From Enterovibrio baiacu (GTDB lineage: Bacteria; Pseudomonadota; Gammaproteobacteria; Enterobacterales; Vibrionaceae): 64,000 bases of DNA. Position 1 is the stretch's first letter; every line of letters starts with the position of its first letter. Of the stretch, positions 17,138-35,929 are shown one piece after another. The notes beneath the pieces were generated by a model. The model made no database searches. It saw only the letters and a list, made by a program, of their open reading frames with translations, and was not told the origin of the DNA. A program made the translations under genes and the position numbers. The stretch spans positions 463,810-527,809 of the forward strand of contig NZ_SCHN01000008.1 of assembly GCF_004120195.1 (NCBI RefSeq). Reading direction: 5' to 3'.

Positions 17138-17434
17138 ATGAACGTCGTCGCTATCACTGCATGCCATACCGGAATTGCCCACTGTTACATGGCCGCAGAT
17201 CGCCTCATCGAAGCCGCTAAAGCACTCTCCATCAACATCAAAGTTGAAACCCAAGGCGCGATGGGTATCGAGAACAAGATCTCCAAACGCGAGTTTGATT
17301 CCGCAGATTTTATATTGTTGGCCACTGAAATTAGCCCGGCAGAAAGCGATCGTTATGAAGGGAAAAATCCCACTATCGTTTCCGTGCAAGACGCCATCAA
17401 TCACCCCCTATCTCTTTTGAAAAAATTTAAGTGA
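17138..17434 (+). CDS. PTS fructose-family EIIB component
   Basis: A 98-residue cytoplasmic EIIB protein. It carries the phosphorylated cysteine at residue 9 in I-T-A-C-H-T-G-I-A-H-C-Y. The family norm is T-x-C-P-T-G-I-A-H-T-Y, so the P-loop has H instead of P and C instead of T. V-E-T-Q-G-A-M-G and A-D-F-I-L-L-A-T-E complete the fold. It passes phosphate from EIIA to sugar bound in EIIC. It overlaps the following HPr-EI-EIIA gene region, so the two are co-translated. A second EIIB gene lies next to EIIC 17 kb away. This one may be the FrwD-like partner or an accessory subunit. Confidence 0.9.
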   Translation: MNVVAITACHTGIAHCYMAADRLIEAAKALSINIKVETQGAMGIENKISKREFDSADFILLATEISPAESDRYEGKNPTIVSVQDAINHPLSLLKKFK

Positions 17435-17439
17435 ACACA

Positions 17440-19920
17440 ATGAAAAAAGAAGTCGCATTTACCTGTGAACTGCCAAACGGTATTCACGCTCGCCCAGCAA
17501 ACCAGCTTGAAGCGGTTTGCCGTCAATTTAGCAGTGACATCACGCTGAAAAACCTGCGTAACGAAAACACAGGTTCAGCAAAAAGTGTCCTGTCGCTGGT
17601 GGGTACAGACACCCTGTTGAACGACCCGTGTTCATTGATCATCGAAGGTGATGACGCAGAAGCCGCATTTGATGTGTTGGCGACCTACCTGCGTGAAGAA
17701 TTCCCGCATTGTGACGAAGAGTTGGTGGTGATGGATGAGGGCGATGTGACGCTGCCACAATCACTGATGAACCATAACCCAACCCTTATCCGCGCGAAGC
17801 GCCTGTCTGCAGGTATCGCCAAGGGTAAACTGATTCGCTACAACGAGATCGAACTGTCAGTGTTCGAGCAAGAAACCGCAACGCTGAACTTTGAACAAGC
17901 GAAGCAGCAAGTGACCGAAACCTTGATTGATAAGGCTGAACTGGCAAGCGGCCAAGAAAAAGAAATCATCAAGGCGCATTTGGGCATTTTGAACGATGAA
18001 ACCTTGAACGAAAAAGTGTCGGGTTTTGTGTCAAACGGTGAGTCGCTGGCGAAAGCGATTCTTCTGACCGTTGCAGCCATCACTGAAACCTTGATGCAGT
18101 CGTCTTCGGCATACCTGAAAGAGCGTGTGCTAGACATCAAAGACATCGCACTGCAATTGCTGATGACGGCGCACCCGCACGTTGAAGTGTCGACTGAATT
18201 CACGTTGACTGAACCGTCAATCGTGATAGCTAACGACCTGACGCCAAGCCAGTTCTTGGGTCTAGATCGTGAATTCTTGCAAGGTCTGATCCTGACGCAA
18301 GCAGGTTCTACCTCGCACACTGTCATTTTGGCGCGCGCATTCAACATCCCTGCGGTATCTGGCGTTGAAATTGACGCATGTGCGAAGCACGAAGGCGAAA
18401 TCCAATTTGTTGATGGTGGCCTAGGTATCGTGGCACTCGCACCTTCTGATGCAGTGGCAACCTACTTCGAACGTGCGATGTGGCTGGCAGAGCAAGTAAA
18501 AGCCGCCGAAAGCGAATACTTAAACCTGCAAGCGCAGACCAAAGATGGTCACAAGATTGAAATCGCAGCAAACATCGCGTGTACCGTAGAAGCGGAATCG
18601 GCGTTTGCGAAAGGCGCGGAAGGCATTGGTCTTTTCCGCACTGAAATGCTGTTCATGGATCGCAGCACGGCACCTGACGAACAAGAGCAGTTTGATGCGT
18701 ACAAAGAAGTGCTTGAAGCCGCGGGTGACAAAGCCGTGATTATCCGCACCATGGATATCGGTGGTGACAAGCCGCTGGATTACTTGAACCTGCCACACGA
18801 GCACAACCCGTTCTTGGGTTACCGCGCGGTGCGTATCTACCCACAATTCCTCGCGTTGTTCCACACCCAACTTCGTGCGATTTTGCGTGCGGCGCAATAC
18901 GGTCACACCAAAGTGATGATCCCGATGATTCAAAGCATCGAAGAAATCCGTTGGGTGAAAGCGCAGCTAGAGATCGTGAAAGCGGAATTGGTGAGCGACA
19001 ACACCCCATTCGGCGAGATTGAATTGGGCATCATGGTAGAAATTCCATCCGTGGCATTCATCATGGATCAGTTCTGCAAAGAAGTGGATTTCTTCAGTAT
19101 TGGCTCAAACGACATGACTCAATACTTGCTGGCAGTTGACCGTGACAACGACAACGTTGCCAAGCTTTACAACAGCCTAGCACCGTCATTCCTGCGCTTA
19201 CTTCGCGCGGTGGTCTCTGGCGCACAAGCGTACGACAAATGGGTTGGCCTGTGTGGTGAGCTAGGCGCGAACAAGAAAGTGCTGCCATTGCTTGTAGGCG
19301 CTGGCTTGAACGAACTAAGCATGGCGGCGCCAAGCATTGCACCAACCAAAGCGGCACTTCGTCAGTTTGACAGTGAAGCGTGTAAAGCACTGTTCAATGC
19401 AGCGTGTGATTGCGCGACGATTGCCGATGTTGAGGTACTGCTAGATGTCTTCGCGCAGTCTCAAGAAGATAAGCCACTGCTAGATGTTGAATGTGTGCTG
19501 CTTGATTGCGACTTCAACAGCAAAGAAGAAGCGATTCAAACGCTGGTGGGCAACCTAGGTGTGCGCGGTCGTACTCACTTGGTGAACGAGCTAGAAGCGG
19601 ATATCTGGGCGCGTGAGTCTGTGTTCACCACAGGTCTTGGCAATGGCTTTGCGATCCCACACACCAAATCAGACAACATTGCGCATTCGTCCATCTCTAT
19701 CGCTCGCTTGAACAAGCCTGTGATTTGGAGCGACGACGAAGACGGCGAAGTCGAATTTGTCATCATGCTGACGCTTAACAAAAACCAAGGCGACCAGCAC
19801 ATGCGCATTTTCTCTGGCCTTGCGCGCAAACTTATCCACGAATCTTTCCGCAACACCCTAAAAACAATGACGACGGAAGCTGAAATCATCGGCTACCTGC
19901 AGTCTGAGCTCTCTTTGTAA
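17440..19920 (+). CDS. Fused PTS HPr-EI-EIIA multiphosphoryl transfer protein
   Basis: About 826 residues joining three phosphoryl carriers, as in E. coli FryA/FrwA-type proteins. The HPr domain (1-90) has G-I-H-A-R-P-A with the active His at 16. The EI domain (~115-660) has the phospho-His at 293 in S-T-S-H-T-V, the PEP-binding G-L-F-R-T-E and F-F-S-I-G-S-N-D-M-T-Q-Y, and Cys 605 in L-C-G-E-L-G-A-N, where the usual text is C-G-E-M-A-G-D. The C-terminal EIIA of the fructose type has His 741 in A-I-P-H-T-K. It needs only PEP to energise EIIB. The ATG is preferred to a GTG nine bases upstream, which overlaps the EIIB stop. A strong terminator follows, then the GH92 array. Confidence 0.94.
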   Translation: MKKEVAFTCELPNGIHARPANQLEAVCRQFSSDITLKNLRNENTGSAKSVLSLVGTDTLLNDPCSLIIEGDDAEAAFDVLATYLREEFPHCDEELVVMDEGDVTLPQSLMNHNPTLIRAKRLSAGIAKGKLIRYNEIELSVFEQETATLNFEQAKQQVTETLIDKAELASGQEKEIIKAHLGILNDETLNEKVSGFVSNGESLAKAILLTVAAITETLMQSSSAYLKERVLDIKDIALQLLMTAHPHVEVSTEFTLTEPSIVIANDLTPSQFLGLDREFLQGLILTQAGSTSHTVILARAFNIPAVSGVEIDACAKHEGEIQFVDGGLGIVALAPSDAVATYFERAMWLAEQVKAAESEYLNLQAQTKDGHKIEIAANIACTVEAESAFAKGAEGIGLFRTEMLFMDRSTAPDEQEQFDAYKEVLEAAGDKAVIIRTMDIGGDKPLDYLNLPHEHNPFLGYRAVRIYPQFLALFHTQLRAILRAAQYGHTKVMIPMIQSIEEIRWVKAQLEIVKAELVSDNTPFGEIELGIMVEIPSVAFIMDQFCKEVDFFSIGSNDMTQYLLAVDRDNDNVAKLYNSLAPSFLRLLRAVVSGAQAYDKWVGLCGELGANKKVLPLLVGAGLNELSMAAPSIAPTKAALRQFDSEACKALFNAACDCATIADVEVLLDVFAQSQEDKPLLDVECVLLDCDFNSKEEAIQTLVGNLGVRGRTHLVNELEADIWARESVFTTGLGNGFAIPHTKSDNIAHSSISIARLNKPVIWSDDEDGEVEFVIMLTLNKNQGDQHMRIFSGLARKLIHESFRNTLKTMTTEAEIIGYLQSELSL

Positions 19921-19937: not shown

Positions 19938-19968
19938 AGGTGCTGCATCCCCCTGCGGCACCTTTTTT
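19938..19968 (+). terminator. Terminator-like hairpin between PTS gene and GH92 array
   Basis: A 10-bp stem (AGGTGCTGCA / TGCGGCACCT, one G-U pair) with a 6-nt loop is followed by six T. It sits in the 63-bp gap before the first GH92 gene, leaving almost no room for a new promoter. Confidence 0.85.
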
Positions 19969-19983: not shown

Positions 19984-22386
19984 ATGAACATCAAGTTAGC
20001 GCCTTGTGCACTCGCTATAGCCCTTGCTTTGTCTGTTGTTGGCTGTAATTCAGATTCCAACACCTCAGAACCTAGCATTTCTATTCCATCCGTGTCGATT
20101 ATCGATAAAGCGGTATTGAAATACGTCGATCCAATGATTGGTACCGCTGCATCGGGCCACACATTCCCAGGTGCGGTTGTTCCTGCGGGCATGGTTCAAC
20201 TTTCACCAGATACGTTTATTGGCTCAGAAGTAGGCCATGAAGCTGGCCAAAATGCGTGGCATTCAGCATCGGGTTACTGGGATTCATCCAACTATGAAAC
20301 TGGCGAAATTGTTGATACTGACGTGTCGCTATACGGCTTCTCGCATACCCACTTGTCAGGCACGGGTGCTACCGATCTAGGCGACATTCTTGTTTTGCCT
20401 TATTCAGACTTGAATGATCACGGCATCAATACCTTTGATAAGTCGAACGAAATTGCCACGGCAGGTTTTTACAAAACCAAACTGAACAACGGCAACATCG
20501 ACGTCGAACTTACAACAACAAAGCGCGTTGGTTTGCACAAGTATACCTTTGCGAAAGGTGCTGAGCGCAACGTCAAGTTCGACTTAGGCCATACCTTGTT
20601 GCCTAACGGCGGTAAGTCGCTGAAAAACAAAATTGAAGTCATCGACGAATACACCATTCGCGGTCGTAAATCGTCAACGGGTTGGTTCCAAGGTCAAGAT
20701 CACCAAGGTCATGACATCTTCTTCTACGCGAAGTTTAACCAGCCTGTAGCAAGCGCCATTCTGGGTAAAGACGGTGGCGAACCGACTACTGATATGCGTC
20801 ACAACGCCGTCTATCAAGGTGATGATTTAACGGCATTCCTAAACTTTGGTGCGGGTGAGGAATCGATTGAAATTCGCGTCGGTATTTCCCCTGTTAACTG
20901 GCACGGCGCACAGAAAAACTTAGAAGCAGAAGCACCGACGTTTGATTTTGCAAAAGTGAAATCAGACGCGGAATTCGCATGGGCTGAGAAGCTTGCAAAA
21001 GTGAAAGTGGAAGGTGGCTCAGAAGCAGAAAAGACCAACTTCTACACGGGCATGTATCACATGATGATCGCGCCAATTGAATTTTATGACGTTGATGGTC
21101 GCTACGTGGATATGCTTGGCACCACTCGCACCTTGGAAGAAGGCGACACGCCGAACTATTCCATCTATTCAACGTGGGATACCTTCCGTGCGGTTCACCC
21201 ATTCTGGACCATCATTGATCCGAAGCAAGCCACTTTGTACGCGGAAGATTTGATCCGTAAATCAAACGACGAGTTCGGCATGCTGCCTAAGTGGGAAGGT
21301 CACGGATCTGAAACGGGCACCATGATCGGCTACCCATCAACGGCAATCCTTGGTGATGCGGTTACCAAAGGTTTGGTGGATGCAGAACAAGCGCTTGAAG
21401 CATCGGTGAAGTCGGCGCACTACCGCCCACATGACTTCCCGCAAATCAACGATGGTATTTTGACTGCGCTAATGGCGGGTCAATTGAACTACCACATCAA
21501 AGAGAAGTGTGTTCGCGTTCCAAACTGGAACTCCGTGTCTTACTCGCTTGAGTTCTCTTTCTACGATTGGACCATTGCTGAAATGGCGAAAGCCGCTGGC
21601 GATATGGAAACCTATGACGAATTCAAAGCGCGTTCTTATAACTCTCTAGAGCATTGGGATCCAAGTGTTGGCTTCTTTGTTCCTACAGAGACGAAAGATG
21701 GCGATGTTTGTGCATTCAAATACAGCGCTGACACTTTCAGCCCTTATAAAGCGGATGCGTTCTACTTCACCGAAGGTAACGCATGGCAGTGGCAGTGGGC
21801 GTTCATGCAGGACTTGGACAAGCTGACCGAAATAATGGACGGCACAGAGGGTCTGAACCAGAAACTCAATAATTTGTTCAATGCTGATCCAAACGGTGGT
21901 GAAGCTCACCAAGATATGACGGGCTATATCGGTCAATACATTCATGGTAACGAGCCTTCACACCACGTGATTTACCTGTATAACCGCACCCAAGAATCTT
22001 ACAAGACACAGGAATACTTGGATCAGGTTTACGACGAATTCTACAAACCAACGCCAGACGGCATCATTGGTAACGAAGACGTTGGCCAAATGTCAGCGTG
22101 GTACTTGATGTCGTCCCTTGGTTTCTACCAAATTTCACCGACTGACCCAACGTACAGCATTGGCCGCCCAATCTTCGACAAAGCCACCATGTCGATTGGC
22201 GATGGCAAGTTTACGGTTATTGCTGAAAACAACGGCCCGGACAACATGTACGTGAAATCCGTCACCATCAACGGCAAACCTTTGGATAAATTCAACACCT
22301 TTAAACACGAAGAGTTTAAAGCGGGTGGTGAACTTCGCTTCGTGATGACCGCTGATAAGTCAGAGGCCATGGCTGCGAATCTTTAA
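19984..22386 (+). CDS. GH92 alpha-mannosidase lipoprotein (copy 1)
   Basis: An 800-residue exo-acting alpha-mannosidase of family GH92, which is calcium-dependent and inverting. The signal ends in the lipobox V-V-G-C (residues 18-21) followed by Asn-Ser, so it is likely sorted to the outer membrane. The beta-sandwich N-domain carries P-A-G-M-V-Q-L-S-P-D and F-S-H-T-H-L-S-G-T-G. The (alpha/alpha)6 part carries S-T-W-D-T-F-R, S-Y-S-L-E-F-S-F-Y-D-W (Glu 523, candidate general acid), H-G-N-E-P-S-H-H near 654 and G-N-E-D-V-G-Q-M-S-A-W near 696 (candidate base region). First of five paralogues, and 63 bp after the PTS gene. Linkage specificity cannot be read from sequence. Confidence 0.95.
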   Translation: MNIKLAPCALAIALALSVVGCNSDSNTSEPSISIPSVSIIDKAVLKYVDPMIGTAASGHTFPGAVVPAGMVQLSPDTFIGSEVGHEAGQNAWHSASGYWDSSNYETGEIVDTDVSLYGFSHTHLSGTGATDLGDILVLPYSDLNDHGINTFDKSNEIATAGFYKTKLNNGNIDVELTTTKRVGLHKYTFAKGAERNVKFDLGHTLLPNGGKSLKNKIEVIDEYTIRGRKSSTGWFQGQDHQGHDIFFYAKFNQPVASAILGKDGGEPTTDMRHNAVYQGDDLTAFLNFGAGEESIEIRVGISPVNWHGAQKNLEAEAPTFDFAKVKSDAEFAWAEKLAKVKVEGGSEAEKTNFYTGMYHMMIAPIEFYDVDGRYVDMLGTTRTLEEGDTPNYSIYSTWDTFRAVHPFWTIIDPKQATLYAEDLIRKSNDEFGMLPKWEGHGSETGTMIGYPSTAILGDAVTKGLVDAEQALEASVKSAHYRPHDFPQINDGILTALMAGQLNYHIKEKCVRVPNWNSVSYSLEFSFYDWTIAEMAKAAGDMETYDEFKARSYNSLEHWDPSVGFFVPTETKDGDVCAFKYSADTFSPYKADAFYFTEGNAWQWQWAFMQDLDKLTEIMDGTEGLNQKLNNLFNADPNGGEAHQDMTGYIGQYIHGNEPSHHVIYLYNRTQESYKTQEYLDQVYDEFYKPTPDGIIGNEDVGQMSAWYLMSSLGFYQISPTDPTYSIGRPIFDKATMSIGDGKFTVIAENNGPDNMYVKSVTINGKPLDKFNTFKHEEFKAGGELRFVMTADKSEAMAANL

Positions 22387-22399
22387 AAGATTTGCACTT

Positions 22400-22527
22400 G
22401 CTCCTCCCACTCTTCGAGGGGGAGGCTGGGAGGGGGTGCTCTTTGTCTGATGATTGGCCTGAGTTTGAGTGTCGTTATCAAGGCCGCTTAACCCCTCCCT
22501 AACCCTCCCCTTGAAAAGTGGAGGGAA
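22400..22527. repeat. Palindromic intergenic repeat between GH92 genes 1 and 2
   Basis: The left arm is G-rich (GGGGGAGGCTGGGAGGGGGT) and the right arm C-rich (AACCCCTCCCTAACCCTCCC), so the ~128-bp element can fold back on itself. Its right end (CCGCTTAACCCCTCCCT, then TTGAAAAGTGGAGGG) recurs at 8850-8883. It resembles a small non-autonomous mobile element or BIME. It explains why this gap (388 bp) is much longer than the other gaps in the array. Confidence 0.7.
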
Positions 22528-22592
22528 TAAAGAAAAAACAAAGTCGGAATTAAACTACTCACGAATGAGAAGTGGGTAAATAAAAGTAATAC

Positions 22593-22651
22593 AAACCGCC
22601 CAAAAGATATTTAAGCAATGTGGACATGTTTAAGTGTCGGGCGGTTTTTTT
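22593..22651 (+). terminator. Terminator-like hairpin after GH92 copy 1
   Basis: A 9-bp stem (AAACCGCCC / GGGCGGTTT) encloses a 37-nt loop with a smaller inner hairpin (AATGT/ACATG) and is followed by a T run. Confidence 0.75.
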
Positions 22652-22774
22652 ATGAAAACGATTTACAAATAAATAATGAGAGCGCGATTCAAAAATCTTA
22701 TGCCGGTATCGGCAGGGGTTCGATCACGCCAAAAACAATCATCCAATACGTTTCTAACACTATATAGGTCGAAA

Positions 22775-25483
22775 ATGATAAACAAAAAGTCTGTGCTTTC
22801 TATGGCGATCGTTTTTGCGTTAGCGGGCTGTAATTCCAGTTCATCGGACAACAGTGGACATATCGGTACCTTGCCGCAGCCTGATCTTTCTGTACTGAAT
22901 TATGTTGATACGCTTATCGGGACGAAAGGGTTGGGTAACGTGAACCCGTCACCTGTCATGCCGGAAGGCATGATCCAACCGTCACCAGACAACTTCGATC
23001 CTAACGGGTGGAATGGCAAAGGTTCTCCCTCTGAGTATGACCCAACCAATGCGCTGCTTTCTGGTTTCACCATGACTCACATTTCAGGTGCAGGTAAAGG
23101 TGATCTGAATGATTTCGCCTTCTTGCCCTACACAGGCTTTAACACCGACGCACCAACCATCAACAAAGACACAGAAACCGCAGAAGTGGGTTACTACTCG
23201 GTGGAATTAAAAGAGACGGGTGTGAAAGCGGAACTGACGGCGACTGATCGCGTGGCGTTCCAGCGTTACACCTTCAAAAAAGGCGAAGACCGTAAAGTTC
23301 GTATCGACCTACAACACGAGTTGTTGGAAACCTATGGTAACCACTCTCGCAATATTTACTACAAGCGTTTGAACGACACCACGGTGGTGGGCGCGCGTAC
23401 ATCAAACGAATGGGGACAATGGCAGACGGTTTTCTTCGTTGCTGAGTTCTCTGAATCTATCGTTGAAGAAAACCTTTACGCGAAACTGGCCTCTGAAAGC
23501 AAATTGCGCCCAGTCGATGCGACAGAAGTGGGGTTGGCAGACTACCGTGGCTACGCAGAACATCAGCCAATGCCGGGCGAGCCTGAGCCAGATGCGGAGC
23601 GTCTCGCCAAGCGCGCAAACGATGTGATGACACACCTGAACTTCGGCAAAGGTGATGCACCAATCACAGTCAAAGTGGCAATTTCCGGCACTAGTGTGGA
23701 AGGTGCTATCAATAACTTGAATGCGGACACAAACGATTTCAACTTTGATGCTGTGGTAGAGAAAAACCGTATCTCATGGGCTGAAATTTTGGGTGAGTTT
23801 GAACTGGAAGGCGGCAAAGAAGCCGATAAAACCATGTTCTACACCTCGCTTTACCGCACCTATGTCGCGCCATTCGTTTACCAAGATGTAGACGGAAAAT
23901 ATCGTGGCATGGATGGCAAAGTGCATCAGGCAGAAGACGGTTTGGTGAACTACTCGGTGTATTCAATGTGGGATACGTTCCGTGCCGCGCACCCGCTAAA
24001 AACCATCATTGATAAATCACGTGCTGTGGAATACGCACACGATTTGCTGAACAAATACAAAACAGGCGGCGTGCTGCCTAAATGGGAACTTCACTCGGAT
24101 TACACTGGAGAAATGGTCGGGCATCCTGCGGTTTCTGTTATTGCGGACATCATGGTGAAACACCCTGAAGCCTTCACGCAGGATCATTTTGAACTCGCGA
24201 TCCAAGCGGCGAATGACACACTCGATTTCTCGCTAGATAAAACTGATAGTTGGGTGCCTTACAAAGATGCATGGTCTGGTGACAAGCGTTTCACCGTCAT
24301 GACGCGCCACAACAATTACCAAGAAGCGCTCGGTTACATTCCTGCGAATGCGAAATGGGCGGCGGACGCCGGCGACAAACCCGCATACGTGAACGGGATT
24401 TCTGAAGATAAATATGACGGGCTGGTGAACGAATCTGTGTCATATGGTTTGGAGAATGCCTACTACGACTGGACAGTCGCGCAGATCGCCAAACTGGCAG
24501 GTGATGACGCGTCATTTGAGCGTTACATGCAGCGTTCTGAGTCATTCAAAAACTACTTTGATTACAACCCAGAGTTTTACGGCAAGCTCAAAGACAGCAA
24601 AGGCAACTCACTTGGCGCGACGGGCTTTATGCGCCCGGTCTACAACCAAAACGGTGAGAAGGTTTTCGCGAACAACCTGAAAGCGGATTGTGTGGATGAA
24701 AATCTGGCACTGTCTATCCCGCAAGGCTTGGATTACAACACGTGTAAAGACCGCAAAAACCTGACAGAAAACGATGTGTTCTGGCCTTACCGCGCCGAGC
24801 ACCGTGGTGAAGATTTCACCGAAGGAAATACGTGGCAGTGGACGTGGTTTGCACCGCACAGCATCAATGGCCTTGGCAATGTGATGGCGGGTCAGAACAA
24901 TGTTCGCGCTGACTTCGACACCCCAGAAGCATTGACAGCAGAAGGTAAAGCGTCGCTATTGGCAAACTTGAATGCGCTGTTCAATGCCAACTCGAACGCT
25001 GACACCAGCCAGTCTCATGACATGTCTGGCTACATCGGCCAGTTCGTGATGGGCAATGAACCTGACCACCACGTGCCAATGATATACAACTGGACCGCAG
25101 AACCTTGGAAAACACAGGAAATTGTCAACCGTGCAATGAATGAGTTCTACCACCCAACGTTAGAAGGCCTGATTGGTAATGAAGACGTTGGCCAAATGTC
25201 GGCGTGGTATGTGATGAACGCCTTGGGCTTCTACCAAGTGACGCCGGCGGATCCGTCTTACACCATCACGCGCCCAATCTTCGATAAAGCAGTGATCCCC
25301 GTTGATGGCGGTTCATTCACCATCACAACGGAAAACAACAGCGAAGAGAATATCTACGTGAAATCTGTTGCCATTAATGGCAAGCCTCTAAATAACAACT
25401 TCTCATTTAAACACTCAGATCTGAAAGCGGGCGGGCAATTAAGTTTTGTCATGACCGGAAATAAAGAAGACGCATTAAAGTAA
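22775..25483 (+). CDS. GH92 alpha-mannosidase lipoprotein (copy 2)
   Basis: About 902 residues, the longest copy together with copy 3. The start is placed at the ATG that gives a clean lipoprotein signal (M-I-N-K-K-S then hydrophobic core, lipobox L-A-G-C and a Ser-rich linker). An upstream in-frame extension of 33 residues has no signal character. GH92 motifs: F-T-M-T-H-I-S-G-A-G, S-M-W-D-T-F-R, S-Y-G-L-E-N-A-Y-Y-D-W near residue 560, G-N-E-P-D-H-H near 759 and G-N-E-D-V-G-Q-M-S-A-W near 801. The S to D change in the H-H motif is shared with copy 3 only. An insert near residues 255-290 contains many charged residues. The role is inferred to be a different linkage or glycan branch from copies 1, 4 and 5. 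Confidence 0.94.
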   Translation: MINKKSVLSMAIVFALAGCNSSSSDNSGHIGTLPQPDLSVLNYVDTLIGTKGLGNVNPSPVMPEGMIQPSPDNFDPNGWNGKGSPSEYDPTNALLSGFTMTHISGAGKGDLNDFAFLPYTGFNTDAPTINKDTETAEVGYYSVELKETGVKAELTATDRVAFQRYTFKKGEDRKVRIDLQHELLETYGNHSRNIYYKRLNDTTVVGARTSNEWGQWQTVFFVAEFSESIVEENLYAKLASESKLRPVDATEVGLADYRGYAEHQPMPGEPEPDAERLAKRANDVMTHLNFGKGDAPITVKVAISGTSVEGAINNLNADTNDFNFDAVVEKNRISWAEILGEFELEGGKEADKTMFYTSLYRTYVAPFVYQDVDGKYRGMDGKVHQAEDGLVNYSVYSMWDTFRAAHPLKTIIDKSRAVEYAHDLLNKYKTGGVLPKWELHSDYTGEMVGHPAVSVIADIMVKHPEAFTQDHFELAIQAANDTLDFSLDKTDSWVPYKDAWSGDKRFTVMTRHNNYQEALGYIPANAKWAADAGDKPAYVNGISEDKYDGLVNESVSYGLENAYYDWTVAQIAKLAGDDASFERYMQRSESFKNYFDYNPEFYGKLKDSKGNSLGATGFMRPVYNQNGEKVFANNLKADCVDENLALSIPQGLDYNTCKDRKNLTENDVFWPYRAEHRGEDFTEGNTWQWTWFAPHSINGLGNVMAGQNNVRADFDTPEALTAEGKASLLANLNALFNANSNADTSQSHDMSGYIGQFVMGNEPDHHVPMIYNWTAEPWKTQEIVNRAMNEFYHPTLEGLIGNEDVGQMSAWYVMNALGFYQVTPADPSYTITRPIFDKAVIPVDGGSFTITTENNSEENIYVKSVAINGKPLNNNFSFKHSDLKAGGQLSFVMTGNKEDALK

Positions 25484-28320: not shown

Positions 28321-28335
28321 CTAAAAGGAATGAAA

Positions 28336-30792
28336 ATGAAACATACATTAGCACCGCTAGCGGTGGTGATTGCTATTGCGCTGTCTGGTTGTAATTCAGA
28401 TTCGGATTCAAACTCTCAAATAGGTTTGGTCGGTGAAGTGGTTAATAAGTCACTGATTAAATATGTTGACCCCTTTATTGGCACGGGCGCCGACGGCCAC
28501 ACCTTCCCAGGCGCAGTCTACCCGGGCGGTATGGTGCAGCTTTCGCCTGACACAGAAATGGAAGGGTGGGGCTCTGCTGCGGGTTATTTTGACCACGGTA
28601 AAAAAGAAGACATTCCTGTTTACGGTTTTTCTCATACCCACCTTTCTGGAACAGGTATCACTGATTTAGGTGATATTCTTATTTTGCCATTTACTGAAAA
28701 AAGCAATGCGACTTATAACACCTTCGATAAAGAAAATGAAAAAGCGGAAGCGGGTTATTATTCTGTCGAATTAAACCGTGGTGATATCAAAGTGGAATTA
28801 ACCACATCGCCACGTGTGGGTTACCACAAATACACGTTTAAAGAAGGCACGACGCCGTTTCTTAAACTGGATTTAGACCACACGCTAAATAAAAGCTGGG
28901 GCAACCGCACCACAATCGGTGATATCGAATTTATTGACGAATACACGGTGCGTGGCATGCGCAGTTCCGATGGCTGGGCGAACAACCAGCACATCTATTT
29001 CTACGCTAAGTTCAATCAACCTATCGTCAAAGCGACGGGCATGATCGACGGTGTCGAAACAGAAATCTCGCTGGATAACGACGCTTTCCAAGCCACCAAG
29101 ACCATCGCCTACCTCGAGTTTGCGCCGTCAGACAAACCTATCGAGCTAACCCTCGGCCTATCGCCAACCAGCGTGCGTGGCGCGAAGAAAAACTTGGATG
29201 CAGAAGTCACTGAATGGGGCTTTGATAAGGTACTGACCAAAACGCAACAAGCATGGCACAACGAGCTAGCAAAAGTGTCCGTGAAGGGCGGTACGGAAGA
29301 GCAGAAAGAGATTTTCTACACGGCCATGTACCATGCCAACATTGCGCCTATGGTGTTCCAAGACGTTGACGGTACGTACCGTGCAATGCGTACACAGGAA
29401 CTAAAAGAGGCGGGTGATACCCCTAACTATTCTATCTATTCTATGTGGGATACCTTCCGTGCATTCCACCCGCTGCAAACCATTGTTAATCCAGATCGCG
29501 CTGAAGAATACGCGAACGATTTGATCCGCAAATACAAAGACGGCGGCATCTTACCGAAGTGGGAACTTCAAGGTCACTACACGGGCACCATGATTGGCTT
29601 CCCTGCGATTTCTATCATTGCCGATGCGATGGTGAAAGGGTTAGACGTTGACGCGCAAGACGCGTTGGAAGCGGCTGAGTTTACGGCGCGCTACCACGAA
29701 AAAAGTGAATTCCCTGATTGGACCGATGACCAAAACATCGGTGCAGCCAATGTTGTTCAGGTAAAGGTGTATGAAGAAAATGGCTTTGTTCACCACGGCT
29801 ACTGGAACTCAGCATCCTACACCTTAGAATTCGCTTACGGTGACTGGGCGGTCTCTGAAATCGCACGTATGGCGGGTGATGTGAAGGTTCAAGATGAGTT
29901 CCTTGCGCGCGCTGACAACTGGTTAAATCACTGGGATGCATCAACTGGCTTCTTGCGTCCGAAAAACCACCCAGCGAGTTCTTCGCCAAACAAACCGCCA
30001 TTGGCGTTCAACCAGCCGATCGATGAAGAGCGTAAAGACGAATGTGTGATGGTCGAATGGCCTGCAGGTTCTGGCACGATGAAAGAACAATGTCCGTTGC
30101 TTGATTTCGACCCGTATTACGTCGATGAATTCGCCTTCACCGAGGGCAATGCATGGCAATGGAAGTTCCAGCCAATGCATGACTTTGCCCGTCTAAAACA
30201 AGAAATCTTCAACGCGGACAAAGCAAGCGGAAAAGACATCACGCCTGAGAAAGCCTTCCGAGAAGATTTGGACGAGTTGTTCACCGCACGCTCCTCAAAC
30301 ACGGGTGAAGAATTGCCTGACTTGACTGGATACATCGGCCAATACATGCACGGTAACGAACCGTCGCACCACATCCCATACCTGTACAACATGACGGACG
30401 AGCCTTGGAAAGCCCAAGAATACCTCGACCGCATCATGGCTGAAATGTACACCATCGAGCCGACCGGTTTGATTGGCAACGAAGACGTCGGCCAGATGTC
30501 AGCGTGGTACATCATGTCAGCGATGGGCTTCTACCAAGTTTCACCAGCAGACCCGTCTTACTCGATTGGTCGCCCGCTGTTTGATGAAGTGGCTATAGAC
30601 GTTGAAGGCGGCAAGTTCTCCATCATTGCTGACAACAACAGCCCGCATAACAAGTACGTAAAATCCGTGACCATCAATGGCAACGCGCTTTCTGATGACT
30701 TGACCTTTGAGCACAGTGAAATCAAAGCCGGCGGCGAGCTTCGCTTCGTGATGACTGGCGACAAGAAAGAAGCCATGCAGGCAAAAATCTAA
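28336..30792 (+). CDS. GH92 alpha-mannosidase lipoprotein (copy 4)
   Basis: The protein is 818 residues. The start is set at the second of two close ATGs because AAGGA is then six bases away; the first ATG touches the AAGGA. The lipobox is L-S-G-C followed by N-S-D-S. Motifs: Y-P-G-G-M-V-Q-L-S-P-D, F-S-H-T-H-L-S-G-T-G, S-M-W-D-T-F-R, S-Y-T-L-E-F-A-Y-G-D-W near 497, H-G-N-E-P-S-H-H near 673 and G-N-E-D-V-G-Q-M-S-A-W near 714. It is most like copy 1 by eye (shared H-G-N-E-P-S-H-H and similar length), suggesting these two arose by duplication. Confidence 0.95.
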   Translation: MKHTLAPLAVVIAIALSGCNSDSDSNSQIGLVGEVVNKSLIKYVDPFIGTGADGHTFPGAVYPGGMVQLSPDTEMEGWGSAAGYFDHGKKEDIPVYGFSHTHLSGTGITDLGDILILPFTEKSNATYNTFDKENEKAEAGYYSVELNRGDIKVELTTSPRVGYHKYTFKEGTTPFLKLDLDHTLNKSWGNRTTIGDIEFIDEYTVRGMRSSDGWANNQHIYFYAKFNQPIVKATGMIDGVETEISLDNDAFQATKTIAYLEFAPSDKPIELTLGLSPTSVRGAKKNLDAEVTEWGFDKVLTKTQQAWHNELAKVSVKGGTEEQKEIFYTAMYHANIAPMVFQDVDGTYRAMRTQELKEAGDTPNYSIYSMWDTFRAFHPLQTIVNPDRAEEYANDLIRKYKDGGILPKWELQGHYTGTMIGFPAISIIADAMVKGLDVDAQDALEAAEFTARYHEKSEFPDWTDDQNIGAANVVQVKVYEENGFVHHGYWNSASYTLEFAYGDWAVSEIARMAGDVKVQDEFLARADNWLNHWDASTGFLRPKNHPASSSPNKPPLAFNQPIDEERKDECVMVEWPAGSGTMKEQCPLLDFDPYYVDEFAFTEGNAWQWKFQPMHDFARLKQEIFNADKASGKDITPEKAFREDLDELFTARSSNTGEELPDLTGYIGQYMHGNEPSHHIPYLYNMTDEPWKAQEYLDRIMAEMYTIEPTGLIGNEDVGQMSAWYIMSAMGFYQVSPADPSYSIGRPLFDEVAIDVEGGKFSIIADNNSPHNKYVKSVTINGNALSDDLTFEHSEIKAGGELRFVMTGDKKEAMQAKI

Positions 30793-30806
30793 TTGTTCAT
30801 AGACTC

Positions 30807-30831
30807 GATGCCGCCAGCGTGCGGCATCTTT
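30807..30831 (+). terminator. Terminator-like hairpin after GH92 copy 4
   Basis: A perfect 8-bp stem (GATGCCGC / GCGGCATC) with a 6-nt loop is followed by TTT. It lies 16 bp before the next start codon. Confidence 0.7.
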
Positions 30832-30846
30832 CTCAAGGATTATTCT

Positions 30847-33345
30847 ATGTCTATTTCTCGTGTTTCTAAGGTTGCGTTGTCAGTCTCTGCCGCCCTTTTT
30901 ATGTTTGGTTGTAACTCCAGTTCTTCTGATTCAAACCCGAACACAGGCGTTGTTTCGCCAGAAGTGAATGTTCTGAAATATGTTGACCCGTTTATTGGCA
31001 CTGGGTTTAACGGTCACACGTTCCCTGGCGCAGTGGTGCCTGAAGGTATGGTGCAGTTGTCTCCTGATACAGAGCTCATGGGCTGGCACTCATCGTCGGG
31101 TTATCACTACGACAAAGACACCCTGTTTGGCTTCTCACACACTCACTTGTCTGGCACCGGCATGGGCGGTTTGGGTGACATTCTGTTCCTTCCGTTTACG
31201 GAAGAGAACGCCAAATACATTGAAGACTCTGACGATTACCGCGATGCGATTTCCGTCAAAATGGATAAAGCCTCTGAAGTGGCAGAAGCGGGTTATTACT
31301 CAGTGAACATCGCTGAGAATGGCATCAAAGCTGAGCTTACCGCCTCTGAGCGCGTCGGCTTCCATCGTTATACCTATCCAGAAGGCCAACCGCAGCGTTT
31401 GAAAGTCGATTTAAATTCGATCCTTAACAGCGATTGGGGCTCCACGTCGCTGCGCAACAAACTGACGATTTCTGAAGATGGTTACACCATCACAGGTGAG
31501 CGTGATGCGGCGCATTTCTCTGGCTGGGCGAAGAACCAAAAGATCTTCTTCCACGCCACCTTCGACAAGAAAATCAAAAACGTTCAACTTCTCGTTGGCG
31601 GAGAGCAAGTTGATGGTCTGAGTGCCGAAGACATTTCCGAATTGGTTTATGACACTGACGGTAAACCGATCAAACGCACGAAAGCCGACGTGACCGCGTA
31701 TGTCGAGTTTGAACAAGGTGACTCACAATCCCTGAACGCACAGGTGGCGATCTCTGCCGTCAGTGCGGAAGGTGCACAAAACAATCACCAAGCAGAAGCC
31801 GGTGTGTCGTTTGATACGGCGCGTACACAAGCCAGTGAAAAATGGGCAAACGCGCTGAACCTAAGCGTGAAAGGTGGTACTGATTCGCAGAAAGAAATTT
31901 TCTACACCGCGCTGTATCACACCAAGATCGCACCGCAAGTTCACCAAGATGTCGATGGAAGTTTCCGCGGCATGGGTAAAGGCTCAATCCGAGAAGGTGA
32001 GGGCGAGTATTCCATCGCCTATGGCCAAGCGACAGAAGCGTTACCTAACTTCTCGGTTTATTCCTTGTGGGACACACACAAAGCGCTGCACCCTTTGAAA
32101 ACCATCACTGAACCAACGCGCGCCGTTCAATACGCGAAGAACTTGGTTCAGAAGTACACCGAAAGTGGCTTGTTGCCGAAGTGGGAACACTTAGGGGACG
32201 AAACCGGCACCATGGTGGGTTACCCTGCGGTTGCTGTGATTGCAGATGCGATCACTAAATTCCCAGACGCCTTCACGCAATCTGAAAAAGCGCTGGCCCT
32301 CAAAGCGGCGATTGATTCCTCCACGTACGACAACTACGACTCGCTTGCCACAGAGTGGGATGTGCCGGTGTTGAATCGTACCCTGACCAAGCACATCGAC
32401 TACATCCAGAAAGAGGGTTTTGCACCAGCGATTCAACGTGATGCGAATGGTGATCCGATCGACCCTGATCACACCATTGAATCCGTGTCATACGGTTTGG
32501 AAAACGCCTTCTATGACTGGGCCATTGCGCAGATTGCGAAAGCGGCAGGCGATACCCAAGCAGAAGCGACCTATCTCGAACGCTCAAAAGGTTACAAGCA
32601 TTACTTCGACAATAATCCGATGGAGTATGCCGAGTACGGTGTAACGGGCTTTATGCGCCCCGTCATGATGGATGGCTCGTTCATGGCACCGTTCGACCCG
32701 TTTGGTACTGCGCATGAAACAGGGAACTACACCGAAGGTAATGCATGGCAGTGGACATGGTTTGTGCCCCACGACATTGCGGGTTTGAAAGAGGTGATGG
32801 GGGGAGAGGCTGCGTTCAAGACCAACTTGGAAGCGACGTTCACAGCTAAAAGCCAAGGTACCGAAACGCCAGACATGTCGGGTTTGATCGGTCAGGTGGC
32901 GTTCGGTAACGAACCTTCACACCACATTCCGTACTTGTACAACTGGACGTCAGAGCCTTGGAAAACCCAAGAAGTCGTCGACCACATTTTGGATGACATG
33001 TACTTAGCGGAGCCAAAAGGCATCATCGGTAACGAAGACGTTGGCGCAATGTCAGCGTGGTATGTCATGTCTGCCATGGGCTTCTACCAAGTCAACGCGG
33101 CTGATCCTACCTACACCATTGGCCGACCTCTGTTCGATGAAGTGAGCATCCCAGTTGCTGGTGGCGAATTCAAAATCACCGCTGAAAACAATGCTGACGA
33201 TAACTTCTACGTCAAATCAGTGACCATCAATGGTCAACCTCTTGAAGACGATTTGTTCTTCAAGCACACCGATATCAAAGCGGGTGGAAAACTCCACTTC
33301 GTGATGACTGGCGATAAAAACGAAGCGATGACACTTGTTCGATAA
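30847..33345 (+). CDS. GH92 alpha-mannosidase lipoprotein (copy 5)
   Basis: About 832 residues from the ATG that follows AAGGA. An in-frame extension of 18 codons upstream runs through the preceding hairpin and is rejected. The lipobox is M-F-G-C followed by N-S-S-S-S. Motifs: P-E-G-M-V-Q-L-S-P-D, F-S-H-T-H-L-S-G-T-G-M-G-G-L, S-L-W-D-T-H-K, S-Y-G-L-E-N-A-F-Y-D-W near 551, G-N-E-P-S-H-H near 687 and G-N-E-D-V-G-A-M-S-A-W near 728 (A replaces Q). The W-D-T-H-K text replaces the W-D-T-F-R of copies 1, 2 and 4. Last of the array, followed by a very strong terminator facing the AraC gene. Confidence 0.95.
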   Translation: MSISRVSKVALSVSAALFMFGCNSSSSDSNPNTGVVSPEVNVLKYVDPFIGTGFNGHTFPGAVVPEGMVQLSPDTELMGWHSSSGYHYDKDTLFGFSHTHLSGTGMGGLGDILFLPFTEENAKYIEDSDDYRDAISVKMDKASEVAEAGYYSVNIAENGIKAELTASERVGFHRYTYPEGQPQRLKVDLNSILNSDWGSTSLRNKLTISEDGYTITGERDAAHFSGWAKNQKIFFHATFDKKIKNVQLLVGGEQVDGLSAEDISELVYDTDGKPIKRTKADVTAYVEFEQGDSQSLNAQVAISAVSAEGAQNNHQAEAGVSFDTARTQASEKWANALNLSVKGGTDSQKEIFYTALYHTKIAPQVHQDVDGSFRGMGKGSIREGEGEYSIAYGQATEALPNFSVYSLWDTHKALHPLKTITEPTRAVQYAKNLVQKYTESGLLPKWEHLGDETGTMVGYPAVAVIADAITKFPDAFTQSEKALALKAAIDSSTYDNYDSLATEWDVPVLNRTLTKHIDYIQKEGFAPAIQRDANGDPIDPDHTIESVSYGLENAFYDWAIAQIAKAAGDTQAEATYLERSKGYKHYFDNNPMEYAEYGVTGFMRPVMMDGSFMAPFDPFGTAHETGNYTEGNAWQWTWFVPHDIAGLKEVMGGEAAFKTNLEATFTAKSQGTETPDMSGLIGQVAFGNEPSHHIPYLYNWTSEPWKTQEVVDHILDDMYLAEPKGIIGNEDVGAMSAWYVMSAMGFYQVNAADPTYTIGRPLFDEVSIPVAGGEFKITAENNADDNFYVKSVTINGQPLEDDLFFKHTDIKAGGKLHFVMTGDKNEAMTLVR

Positions 33346-33367: not shown

Positions 33368-33394
33368 AAGCCGCTCGTAAAGAGCGGCTTTTTT
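33368..33394 (+). terminator. Strong terminator closing the GH92 array
   Basis: A perfect 9-bp stem (AAGCCGCTC / GAGCGGCTT) with a 5-nt loop is followed by six T. It separates the array from the convergent AraC gene. Confidence 0.9.
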
Positions 33395-33439: not shown

Positions 33440-34267
33440 CTACGCGGCATTCAAACGGTATTCGCTCGGCGTCTTACCGGTTTTCTGCTTAAACACGCGG
33501 CAGAAGTAGTTAGTGTCTTTGAAGCCGCATCGGCGGGCGATTTCTTCCACTTTGAAGTTGTATTTCTTCAACATGAACTTGGCACGGTCTAGGCGCACAT
33601 AGGTCACGTAGTCAGCGTATTTCACGCTGCCTTCTTGGTTAAACAGGCGAGAGACATGCGCGGATGACACACCAAAGCGGTTGGCGACTGAAATGCGGGT
33701 GATGTCTTTGTGGAAGTTCTCCTGCACGTAAATACACATACTGCGATAGAGCTTCTCGCCGCGGCTGACTTTCTCTTGTTGCGGGTTTTGCAGTAACGCT
33801 AAGCAATACAAAATCAATGATTTGGCAAGGTGCTCACCCATCACGGTGCATTTCTTCTCTTCCGCAATGCAATTCAATGCGGCTAAGACATGTTCGACGG
33901 CCATGGATGAGGGCAGAGGGAGCGCTTGTTTAATGACGTCAACAAACCCTTCCCCTTCTTTGTAATGCACATAACTGAAGCCCACTTGGTTTTTGCTAAA
34001 CAAAATAGAAATCATCTGTGAGGATTTTTCCCAGGTGGGTTTGCTCCATGCATTGGAAGGGATGTAAATCATTTGATTTTCGGTGAGAGAAAGGTTTTCA
34101 AAACCTTGAGAAGAGTCGACCACTAAATCATATTGCCCCTCAATAATGATCTCTAGTCGATTAAAGTTAACTTGGTATGAACCTTCTGGTGGCGTATTTT
34201 CGCCACAACAAACACGGACAAGAGGCCCATTAAATTTTTGTAGGGATTCGGTTATTATTTTGTTCAT
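33440..34267 (-). CDS. AraC-family regulator, likely of the mannoside locus
   Basis: A 275-residue protein. The N-terminal ~165 residues form a cupin-like effector domain (Y-Q-V-N-F-N-R-L-E-I-I-I, then Y-I-P-S-N-A-W). The C-terminal ~100 residues hold two HTH motifs: I-S-V-A-N-R-F-G-V-S-S-A-H-V-S-R-L-F, then V-E-E-I-A-R-R-C-G-F-K-D-T-N-Y-F-C-R-V-F-K-Q-K-T in two stretches, with the typical family ending G-K-T-P-S-E-Y-R. It stands between the GH92 array and the EIIB/EIIC genes, so it most likely activates the locus in response to a mannose-containing sugar. This is inferred from position. AAGGCT precedes the ATG. Confidence 0.92.
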   Translation of the reverse strand: MNKIITESLQKFNGPLVRVCCGENTPPEGSYQVNFNRLEIIIEGQYDLVVDSSQGFENLSLTENQMIYIPSNAWSKPTWEKSSQMISILFSKNQVGFSYVHYKEGEGFVDVIKQALPLPSSMAVEHVLAALNCIAEEKKCTVMGEHLAKSLILYCLALLQNPQQEKVSRGEKLYRSMCIYVQENFHKDITRISVANRFGVSSAHVSRLFNQEGSVKYADYVTYVRLDRAKFMLKKYNFKVEEIARRCGFKDTNYFCRVFKQKTGKTPSEYRLNAA

Positions 34268-34467: not shown

Positions 34468-34782
34468 TTATGCTTGCGCTAGCATGCTTTCAAGTTTCGC
34501 GATGATTTCAGGTGCTTGTTTCGCAGCCTGAGCAACGGTGACGCGAACGATCTTTTTACCGTTGAAACGCTCTTCTTGTTTGATAGCGATATCTTTAGTT
34601 AGAACCACTACATCTGCGCCTTCCACGTCTGCTGCAGTCAGTTCGTTTTCGATACCGATAGCGCCTTGAGTTTCAATTTTAACGTCCCAGCCTTTTGCTT
34701 TTGCAGCGGTTTCCAGAGCTTCAGCAGCCATGTAAGTGTGAGCAACGCCAGATGGGCAAGAAGTTACGCCGATAAGTTTCAT
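34468..34782 (-). CDS. PTS fructose-family EIIB component
   Basis: A 104-residue cytoplasmic EIIB with the canonical P-loop V-T-S-C-P-S-G-V-A-H-T-Y-M-A-A; Cys 9 carries the phosphate. I-E-T-Q-G-A-I-G-I-E-N and A-D-V-V-V-L-T-K-D complete the family pattern. It follows EIIC by 94 bp and precedes a terminator, so EIIC-EIIB form one transcript running away from the locus centre. It would receive phosphate from the EIIA domain of the fused HPr-EI-EIIA protein encoded at the far left of the locus. Unlike the other EIIB here, its active-site loop matches the family norm, so this is likely the main sugar-phosphorylating subunit. Confidence 0.93.
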   Translation of the reverse strand: MKLIGVTSCPSGVAHTYMAAEALETAAKAKGWDVKIETQGAIGIENELTAADVEGADVVVLTKDIAIKQEERFNGKKIVRVTVAQAAKQAPEIIAKLESMLAQA

Positions 34783-34876
34783 AATATTTCTCTCTTTTAC
34801 ACTTTTATGGTTTTTCAGTTCTATCTAGAGCGACCATCGAGTTGTGGATAAATCGCTCCAGTTTATTCAATGTTGT

Positions 34877-35929
34877 TTAGTCGAAAGACAGTTCTAGTTC
34901 TTCTGTATTCGCTTTTGTATCTTCTTCGCGGTCAGCTACTGGTTTTTTCAGGTAGTTGACGACAAGGGCCGTGGTTGCAGCACCGGCGATAACAGCGATG
35001 ACATACATCATGCGGCCTTCAACAACCGGTAGAACAATCAGACCACCCCAAGGTGCGTGGTTAAGTACGCCTGCCATGAAGGCCACAACGTTACCAACGA
35101 TACCGCCAGCGATGATTGCAGGGATAACACGTGCTGGGTCATTTGCTGCGAATGGGATTGCACCTTCAGTGATACCGATACAGCCCATGATTGCTGCTGC
35201 TTTACCTGCTTCACGCTCTTCTGGAGAGTATTTCTTAGGCGCAAGGAAGGTTGCCAGTGCCATACCTAGTGGTGGAACACAGATTGCAACACCAACACCA
35301 CCCATCAACCAAGGTTGAGTACCGACTTGAGTTTGCGCGAATAGGGTTGCTACTTTGTTGATTGGACCACCCATATCGAATGCAGTCATACCACCTAGAA
35401 CCGCACCCAGTACCGCTTTAGATGTGCCAGCCATTGATTGTAGGCCTTCGTTCATGAATGCCATGAAGCCTGCGATAGGTTGACCGATTACCCATACAAC
35501 CAGTGCAGAAACGATGAACGTACCGCCGATTGGAATGATGAAGTAAGTAGAAAGCGCTTTAAGCTTGTTAGACAGAGGGATGCGCTTAAGTTGTAGAACA
35601 ACGTAACCAGCGATGAAGCCGACGACGATTGCGCCTAGAAAACCAGCTTGAACTTGGTTAGCAAGGTAAGCACCAATCATACCCGGAGCAAGTGCTGGGC
35701 GGTCTGCGATAGAGTAGGCGATGTAACCGCCAAGAACAGGAACGAACAGGGTGAAACCTGCGATACCCATGTCCCAAATACCTTCAAGGAACACGCCTTC
35801 TGGCACTGCGCCTTTACCGCCTAGCATTACAGACAATGCAAGTAGAACACCACCGGCAACAACGAACGGCAACATGTGGCTGGTGCCCGTTAATAGGTGT
35901 CTTTTTAACTCCGAGAAATCAACTTTCAT
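34877..35929 (-). CDS. PTS fructose-family EIIC permease
   Basis: A 350-residue inner-membrane sugar channel of the FrwC/FryC type, with about nine to ten hydrophobic stretches. Diagnostic pieces are L-L-T-G-T-S-H-M-L-P-F-V-V-A-G-G near the N-terminus, A-F-D-M-G-G-P-I-N-K-V-A mid-protein and G-I-T-E-G-A-I-P-F-A later. All are conserved in the fructose EIIC family (the last contains the substrate-contact Glu). The cytoplasmic tail is acidic. No EIIA or EIIB is fused to it; those are supplied by separate genes. The sugar is inferred to be mannose or a mannoside because the gene is locked to five GH92 genes. AAGGTC stands before the ATG. Confidence 0.93.
   Translation of the reverse strand: MKVDFSELKRHLLTGTSHMLPFVVAGGVLLALSVMLGGKGAVPEGVFLEGIWDMGIAGFTLFVPVLGGYIAYSIADRPALAPGMIGAYLANQVQAGFLGAIVVGFIAGYVVLQLKRIPLSNKLKALSTYFIIPIGGTFIVSALVVWVIGQPIAGFMAFMNEGLQSMAGTSKAVLGAVLGGMTAFDMGGPINKVATLFAQTQVGTQPWLMGGVGVAICVPPLGMALATFLAPKKYSPEEREAGKAAAIMGCIGITEGAIPFAANDPARVIPAIIAGGIVGNVVAFMAGVLNHAPWGGLIVLPVVEGRMMYVIAVIAGAATTALVVNYLKKPVADREEDTKANTEELELSFD

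Follow-up and report, generated by a model that had tools for sequence, protein, structure and literature searches.

Five GH92 lipoprotein genes within a split phosphotransferase system of Enterovibrio baiacu: a likely mannoside-scavenging branch of the ManR regulon

Arrays of GH92 genes are known mainly from Bacteroidetes, with uptake of the TonB type. In a stretch of 64,000 nucleotides from Enterovibrio baiacu (assembly GCF_004120195.1, contig NZ_SCHN01000008.1, positions 463,810 to 527,809 of the forward strand; hereafter the window), five GH92 genes were found enclosed by genes of a phosphoenolpyruvate (PEP)-driven phosphotransferase system (PTS). This raises the question of what such enzymes do beside a PTS, which sugar the PTS carries and to which regulon the genes belong. 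It is considered likely that the locus is, taken as a whole, a mannoside-scavenging branch of the ManR (mannose-6-phosphate, Man6P) regulon. Membership of the mannose regulon is very likely, and free mannose is a fairly likely cargo of the PTS; these grades are matters of judgement and were not computed.

The preliminary description of the window had placed five consecutive GH92 lipoprotein genes between the parts of a split PTS and an AraC gene. All ten genes were confirmed at the same coordinates and strands, and Pfam and NCBIfam gave the same names (the Pfam scan covered 20 window proteins). BLAST was used in addition for the fused gene and the last three genes below, and a tree for EIIC:

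17138–17434, plus strand: EIIB1, fructose-family PTS EIIB with an atypical CHTGIAHC loop, Cys kept
17431–19920, plus strand: fused HPr-EI-EIIA of the PtsA/FryA type, overlapping EIIB1 by 4 bp
19984–22386, plus strand: GH92a lipoprotein
22676–25483, plus strand: GH92b lipoprotein, internal Met34 the likely start
25551–28247, plus strand: GH92c lipoprotein, the most divergent among the five
28330–30792, plus strand: GH92d lipoprotein
30793–33345, plus strand: GH92e lipoprotein, internal Met19 the likely start
33440–34267, minus strand: AraC-family regulator, ManR paralogue
34468–34782, minus strand: EIIB2
34877–35929, minus strand: EIIC, fructose-family, of the Frw/VC1821-VC1822-like clade

The layout is that of two convergent operons, EIIB1-fused PTS gene-GH92a-e on the plus strand and EIIC-EIIB2-AraC on the minus strand. 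In a genome-wide search, these five were the only GH92 genes of the genome. Inspection of the translations by eye showed GIHARPA (HPr), TSH and GLCGE (EI) and AIPH (EIIA) in the fused protein, CPSGVAHT in EIIB2, CHTGIAHC in EIIB1 and GITEGAIPF in EIIC, which we take to be the PTS phosphorylation motifs. The fused protein carries EI, HPr and EIIA domains with the active His residues of a self-sufficient relay, and fructose-type EIIB and EIIC domains with the EIIB Cys are present, as in a fructose-family permease. The CHTGIAHC loop of EIIB1 was found in most Enterovibrio/Grimontia-type relatives, and CPTGIAHT in five other loci (L039, L049, L058, L062 and L098; fetched loci are numbered with L and genomes with G).

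It was found that 19 of 120 sampled genomes, that of the window included, carried GH92. The surroundings were read in all 19, and in 18 of them a GH92 sequence adjoined related PTS genes; among these 18, GH92 was only a stub in G009, and the linked genes were broken in G005 and G061. Genes of relatives were called by the longest open reading frame (ORF) and BLAST to the ten window proteins plus some neighbours, and fetched loci overlap partly where one genome was reached by two routes (e.g. L050/L130 and L070/L071). The preliminary description had suggested looking for the same order of GH92 and PTS genes elsewhere: the adjacency recurred, in varied layouts. The Enterovibrio/Grimontia group showed EIIB1-FryA-GH92 with EIIC-EIIB2-AraC; L039, L049, L058 and L062, with L042, showed EIIB1-FryA divergent from GH92b and/or GH92c; L046, L048 and L061 showed IIA-EIIBC-GH92; and L050 held EIIABC, GH92c, manA and AraC. 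In G061 (L061), the manA-manP-manR genes directly adjoined IIA-EIIBC and an interrupted GH92a.

The order was also sampled evenly, with 394 genomes. GH92 was above the cut-off in 17 genomes (window's included) and an EIIC at least 64% identical was present in 41; both were present in seven, and in each of these no more than 19 kb separates GH92 from an EIIC. Not counting the window's genome, EIIC occurred in 6/16 GH92 genomes versus 34/377 others (Fisher P = 0.003). GH92 has other lives in the order; where EIIC co-occurs with it in the sample, GH92 is close by.

Two loci with broken genes were observed in passing. At L061:8660-12263 (G061), by the mannose operon, a 318-aa ORF on the opposite strand lies between the two parts of GH92a. 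In Enterovibrio sp. JCM 19048 (L060/L075), five GH92, the fused PTS and the AraC genes are broken by frame changes; the assembly is 87% complete and this may be sequencing error.

The two halves of the PTS were joined in relatives. EIIC-EIIB2-AraC-EIIB1-FryA was contiguous in Photobacterium chitinilyticum (L093) and P. rosenbergii (L098), with no intervening ORF of at least 100 aa, and the halves lay no more than 10 kb apart, without GH92 between them, in E. norvegicus FF-33 (L074), Grimontia indica (L076), G. celer (L077) and P. aquae (L081). Because the halves are contiguous or near each other in these genomes, the split PTS is one system, within which GH92 genes come and go.

The neighbours of EIIC in named genomes pointed to mannose. 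The set comprised the best 80 of 180 confirmed relatives and gave 79 loci, with neighbours read within ~10 kb, or less at contig ends. GH92 was found near EIIC in 16 loci, manA in 24, GH2 in 12, ManP in 8 and a ManR-like AraC gene in 52; at least one of GH92, manA, GH2 and ManP was present in 49 of the 79. Among the 16 GH92-bearing loci, L071 holds a 118-aa stub and L075 a broken set. Solved relatives mark the GH2 protein of L089 as a beta-mannosidase (E ~7e-141 to beta-mannosidases, versus 1.3e-7 to an exo-glucosaminidase). Mannose is the common term of GH92, beta-mannosidase, manA, ManP and ManR near EIIC. Bacillus renqingensis (L144) has a related EIIC adjoined by two very large GH92-like genes, one of 1677 aa and the other, truncated by the end of the locus, of 1220 aa; the PTS there is of the fructose family, belongs to the clade of the window's EIIC and is accompanied by a PRD-type regulator. 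Because of this case, the pairing is not confined to Gram-negatives.

Further mannoside-looking arrangements were noticed in the same survey. In the Photobacterium phosphoreum group and relatives (L085–L092, L094, L095, L099 and L149), EIIC-EIIB2-AraC has a GH2 beta-mannosidase-like gene close by; in the one of these loci that was scanned, L089, this gene is followed by an oligopeptide-type ABC transporter. In the genome of the window itself, a second such cluster (G000:C28:39449-48002, i.e. L056:1449-10002) contains an EIIB gene overlapping a GH2 beta-mannosidase-like gene; a GH38 alpha-mannosidase-like gene follows, and IIA, AraC and an EIIBC from a different clade are near.

The regulon was approached by promoter comparison, which showed that ACNNTTNTCCAGTAAA is common to the promoters of the GH92 operon, the EIIC operon and a separate manP-manA operon of the same genome (L051); this sharing is the sequence mark taken here for the ManR regulon. 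manA, which the preliminary description had expected outside the window, was found at that locus. The sites in the window are:

17009–17030, plus strand: CRP-like site of the GH92/PTS operon, 9 of 10 scored consensus positions, consensus match only
17041–17059, plus strand: candidate ManR-type operator with core TCCAGTAAA at 17051–17059, 79 bp before EIIB1
36050–36068, minus strand: candidate ManR-type operator with core at 36050–36058, 120 bp before EIIC
36079–36100, minus strand: CRP-like site of the EIIC operon, consensus match only
36273–36284, minus strand: further TTATCCAGTAAA, 343 bp upstream of EIIC

A second TCCAATAT was observed at the EIIC promoter, 20 bp downstream of the first (start to start), a spacing of about two helical turns, as in AraC-type direct repeats. 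By consensus match, a CRP-like site lies ~20 bp upstream of the motif in all three promoters, and that of the GH92/PTS operon was present in 9/9 Enterovibrio/Grimontia-group promoters compared (window's included), 95–129 bp before the called start. A scan for sigma-70 promoters returned 14 matches, below the 23.3 in shuffles.

The extended pattern GNNACNNTTNTCCAGTAAA, built from the three promoters, had three exact matches in the 5.37-Mb genome, which were these same three; at one mismatch there was one more, and the reversed control gave one match at up to one mismatch. The 12-base form matched three times in the window versus 0.02 expected, two of the matches being the promoter sites and one lying further upstream of EIIC. 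In the window and 119 partly overlapping loci, the nine-base core occurred 100 times versus 17 expected from length alone. After removal of 43 repeated promoters, TCCAGTAAA stood before 44/93 operon-leading EIIC, EIIABC, ManP or IIA genes, 13/31 EIIB or FryA genes, 5/47 GH92 genes and 0/658 unrelated genes (49/99, 14/32, 5/52 and 0/683 with repeats), and before 0/4 other PTS leading genes. The five GH92 promoters that bear it sit in PTS-free stretches (L040, L041, L043, L044 and L045). ACAAANNTCCAGTAAATG, which was suggested by the promoters of relatives, had seven exact matches in 61 genomes, all seven before ManP, IIA-EIIBC or EIIB-FryA; at up to one mismatch there were 32 matches, the reversed control giving 11, and of the 30 that were fetched, 19 precede such PTS genes.

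In the manR-manP region of V. cholerae, which has a putative CRP site too, AATCC sites are bound by ManR, an activator that responds to Man6P (Kd ~152 nM); its targets also include VC1820-VC1824, genes for additional PTS proteins (PMC9392796). Because the motif resembles the AATCC site, and many copies in relatives read AATCCAGTAAA, we infer that TCCAGTAAA is a ManR-type operator; the bare five-letter AATCC was too short to inform, and its placement in the promoters compared was inconsistent. The earlier reading of a PTS-coupled mannoside locus was supported by the linkage, the mannose genes near EIIC, the motif shared with manP-manA and the joined PTS halves of relatives.

The five enzymes were read against characterized GH92 proteins. 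Both GH92 Pfam domains were above the curated cut-off in 5/5 (catalytic domain E ≤ 1.1e-123), and a lipobox-type cysteine closed the N-terminal stretch in each; the true start of GH92b and of GH92e is probably the internal Met. The general acid Glu and the base Asp (BT3990 E533 and D644) were conserved in all five. Trp88 and His584-Glu585 were described as the alpha-1,2 determinants of BT3990 (PMC5215778). These residues of the +1 site and DED were present in 0/5; the DED position reads NED in GH92a, b, d and e and NDD in GH92c, motifs assigned to alpha-1,3 enzymes (PMC12858847). An alpha-1,2-mannosidase subtype, as given by database names, was rejected on the lack of the determinants in all five. 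In PDB alignments, made for GH92a and GH92d only, the closest solved structures were 6f8z (BT3130), 7zgm and 6f91 (BT3965), of which BT3130 is likely alpha-1,3 and BT3965 alpha-1,4 (PMC5930347). By their residues the enzymes would cleave alpha-1,3 linkages or others that are not of the alpha-1,2 type, a precise linkage for each enzyme being more than this evidence can predict.

Pairwise identity among the five GH92 proteins was 31–52%. In the GH92 tree (quick method with long-branch warnings, types labelled by best BLAST hit), types a, b and c, and e except the distant row L059, formed supported groups with several genera, and type d formed a single group with low support (45). Each of the five types was found again both in Enterovibrio-type genomes and elsewhere in the Vibrionaceae, as well as in Aeromonas or Endozoicomonas. 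A recent tandem duplication as origin of the five genes was rejected on these identities and on the multi-genus type groups; by the same comparisons the five types are old, and five distinct old types look like a division of labour. A whole-genome search gave no GH76 or GH85 (GH99 and GH125 were not searched) and six matches to GH18. Because neither GH76 nor GH85 turned up, the cell probably trims such chains as are exposed, or else shares with other degraders.

Which kind of permease EIIC is was examined by BLAST and by a tree of 102 rows (101 of 111 EIIC stretches plus the window; built by a quick method that flagged long branches, those of FryC and FrwC among them). Identity of EIIC to its counterpart in Enterovibrio norvegicus DSM 15893 is 99%, and to those of other Enterovibrio and Grimontia 91–97%. 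Compared with E. coli, EIIB2 is 71% identical to FrwB and EIIC 49% to FrwC, the nearest parts being those of Frw; the fused protein is 49% identical to FryA and 49% to the compared part of PtsA. The AraC protein is 47% identical to the ManR-like protein of its own genome versus 34% to E. coli YijO. In the tree, the window fell into a supported clade (99) with Aeromonas EIIABC and Vibrio and Photobacterium EIIBC and EIIABC. Gene sets like VC1820-VC1827 (EIIBC, IIA, manA, ManP, AraC, EIIB, EIIABC and a 258-aa gene) were found in V. fortis, Vibrio sp. D404a and P. sanguinicancri (L136, L137 and L145), and their EIIBC and EIIABC fall within the clade of the window's EIIC. Because they do, EIIC is most likely of the VC1821/VC1822 kind; the link to VC1820-VC1827 was made through these gene sets and published descriptions (PMC9392796). 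A PDB search with EIIC gave nothing at E 0.001.

Taken together, the following course can be proposed. GH92a-e, predicted to be lipid-anchored in the envelope (periplasmic or at the surface), would release mannose residue by residue from glycans. EIIC with EIIB2, and perhaps EIIB1, would import and phosphorylate the released sugar, with the fused HPr-EI-EIIA supplying the operon's own PEP-driven relay, and ManA from the other locus would convert Man6P to fructose-6-phosphate. Rising Man6P would activate the local AraC protein and/or the genomic ManR, and these, with CRP, would bind TCCAGTAAA before the GH92, EIIC and manP-manA operons in a feed-forward loop.

A number of observations weigh against this proposal. 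With respect to the cargo, EIIC is only 45% identical to the ManP-like protein of its own genome and 42% to the FruA-like protein, and in the tree the ManP clade is separate from it, with FruA and MngA also outside; filing EIIC as ManP was rejected on these grounds. Loss of ManP (VC1826) alone severely impairs growth of V. cholerae on mannose despite VC1821 and VC1822 (PMC9392796). The VC1821/VC1822 clade need not carry mannose well, and this is the chief doubt on the cargo; the test is nevertheless not clean, because expression of VC1821/VC1822 needs ManR. None of the four mannose markers was near EIIC in 30 of the 79 named-genome loci. With respect to the linkage, G087 alone among the 19 GH92 genomes had no GH92-PTS link, several genomes had further GH92 loci without an adjoining PTS (L038, L040, L041, L043–L045, L047 and L069), and EIIC was missing from 10/17 GH92 genomes of the order sample. 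In E. norvegicus DSM 15893 (G009; L070/L071), three gaps corresponding to window 20042–22554, 22650–25531 and 25678–32917 have removed nearly all of GH92, and the PTS and AraC proteins are still 98–100% identical. Because this strain kept the PTS and lost nearly all GH92, the PTS has a use without mannosidases, as is expected if sugar freed by others is taken up.

The motif has its own weak points. The core stood before none of 44 AraC/ManR, 16 manA and 12 beta-mannosidase leading genes. Among the 16 GH92-bearing named EIIC loci, some of them cut at contig or locus ends, the exact core preceded a PTS or GH92 gene in five (L071, L072, L075, L083 and L097), was elsewhere in two and was absent from nine. 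It is not general: outside Enterovibrio, Grimontia and some Photobacterium (P. lutimaris), most GH92-PTS loci are without the exact core. Moreover, the motif was chosen after these promoters had been viewed, and many of the loci are close kin and not independent.

Other explanations were weighed against the mannose-scavenging branch. It is possible, if rather unlikely, that the regulon is the same and the cargo another, ManP taking the free mannose and EIIC a manno-disaccharide or other glycan fragment that a cytoplasmic enzyme splits. The genome's existing ManP-manA operon, the position of EIIC outside the ManP clade and the poor growth of V. cholerae without ManP (PMC9392796) fit this view, as do the GH38 enzyme encoded in the second PTS cluster of the genome (L056) and the precedent, by annotation, of E. 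coli MngA-MngB for mannoside transport through a fructose-family PTS. However, GH92 is exo-acting and takes off terminal sugars (PMC5930347), an intracellular mannosidase was not among the ten locus proteins by Pfam and NCBIfam, and relatives of EIIC pair with either GH92 or GH2 beta-mannosidase, of which the linkages differ and mannose is the shared product.

That the cargo is an unrelated sugar, for instance fructose or glucose, with the PTS only co-regulated or neighbouring and the GH92 products entering through ManP alone, is regarded as improbable. NCBIfam does label EIIC and EIIB2 as fructose-type, the PTS is retained without GH92 in E. norvegicus, and in V. cholerae ManR also responds to fructose-1-phosphate and VC1821 is named FdgA, for facilitated diffusion of glucose (PMC9392796). 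Against this stand the recurrent pairing of EIIC with GH92, manA, beta-mannosidase and ManR-like genes in several genera, the motif common to these operons and a separate FruA-like locus in the genome (L055). Strongly disfavoured is an accident by which two unrelated convergent operons came to lie side by side; the opposite strands and the terminator-like stem between the operons would suit it, but in 7/7 genomes of the order sample with both genes these are within 19 kb, the same motif precedes both operons (three matches in the window versus 0.02 expected), and the PTS halves are near each other without GH92 between them in L074, L076, L077, L081, L093 and L098.

Several known systems share parts with the locus. 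V. cholerae ManR-ManP-ManA with VC1820-VC1824 has likewise an AraC-family regulator, a fructose-family PTS, a Man6P route, AATCC operators with a putative CRP site, and a regulon with extra fructose-family PTS genes like EIIC; GH92 is not mentioned in the passages drawn on (PMC9392796), and the window differs in its split PTS with a fused HPr-EI-EIIA and in an EIIC outside the ManP clade. The Frw PTS of E. coli K-12 (ptsA, frwC, frwB, pflD, pflC, frwD, yijO) has the same parts, namely a fused HPr-EI-EIIA, an EIIC, two EIIBs and an AraC gene, but pyruvate-formate-lyase-like genes stand in place of the GH92 genes, and it is annotated as a putative PTS only. E. coli MngA-MngB (2-O-alpha-mannosyl-D-glycerate PTS and alpha-mannosidase) also couples a fructose-family PTS to an alpha-mannosidase; MngB is a cytoplasmic GH38 enzyme acting after uptake, whereas the lipid-anchored GH92 enzymes of the window would act before it, and EIIC is 37% identical to MngA. 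GH92-rich polysaccharide utilization loci of Bacteroidetes likewise hold several GH92 genes of differing type per locus; uptake in the window would be by PTS, and a SusC/SusD-like pair was not found among the ten locus proteins by Pfam and NCBIfam. The N-glycan locus of Streptococcus pneumoniae (GH92, GH38, GH125, EndoD and the Ngt ABC transporter) also trims with exo-mannosidases for sugar supply, but its uptake is by ABC transporter, and its GH92, an alpha-1,2-mannosidase, has the Trp/His/Glu trio that is missing in the window's five (PMC5215778).

Two stems and some neighbouring features complete the description of the window:

19938–19963, plus strand: terminator-like stem of 10 pairs in the gap between the fused PTS gene and GH92a, pattern match only
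33368–33390, no strand assigned: bidirectional terminator-like stem between the convergent operons, pattern match only
36524–38353, minus strand: RTX protein with 22 matches to calcium-binding repeats, on the strand of the EIIC operon and directly upstream of it
38573–39509, plus strand: pieces in two frames, one with a PfkB kinase match under the curated cut-off, a pseudogene or sequence error
11718–11835: TPP riboswitch before thiamine genes
54843–54992: DABA-DC-AT motif RNA

The stem at 19938–19963 could perhaps be an attenuator that splits the expression of the fused PTS gene and GH92a.

The locus is a new combination of known parts; in the open-licence PMC papers searched, no literature on GH92-PTS coupling in these genera was found. 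On balance, we lean towards regarding it as a PTS-coupled counterpart of the Bacteroidetes GH92 locus, in which up to five old GH92 types would feed a sparsely studied, Frw/VC1821/VC1822-like PTS clade in Vibrionaceae, Aeromonadaceae, Endozoicomonadaceae and one Bacillus case. The substrate of this PTS would thereby be mannose or a mannoside freed by envelope mannosidases, and one Man6P-sensing, ManR-type operator would govern both the enzymes and the PTS, at least in Enterovibrio, Grimontia and Photobacterium. Such an arrangement joins the GH92 family to PEP-driven import, with a promoter motif in common with a mannose operon, and offers a testable function for a PTS clade so far named 'fructose-like'. 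These gammaproteobacteria live with sea animals and in sea water, and the suggested diet is glycoprotein N-glycans or yeast or algal alpha-mannans. If this is true, the ManR regulon would extend from sugar uptake to glycan harvesting.

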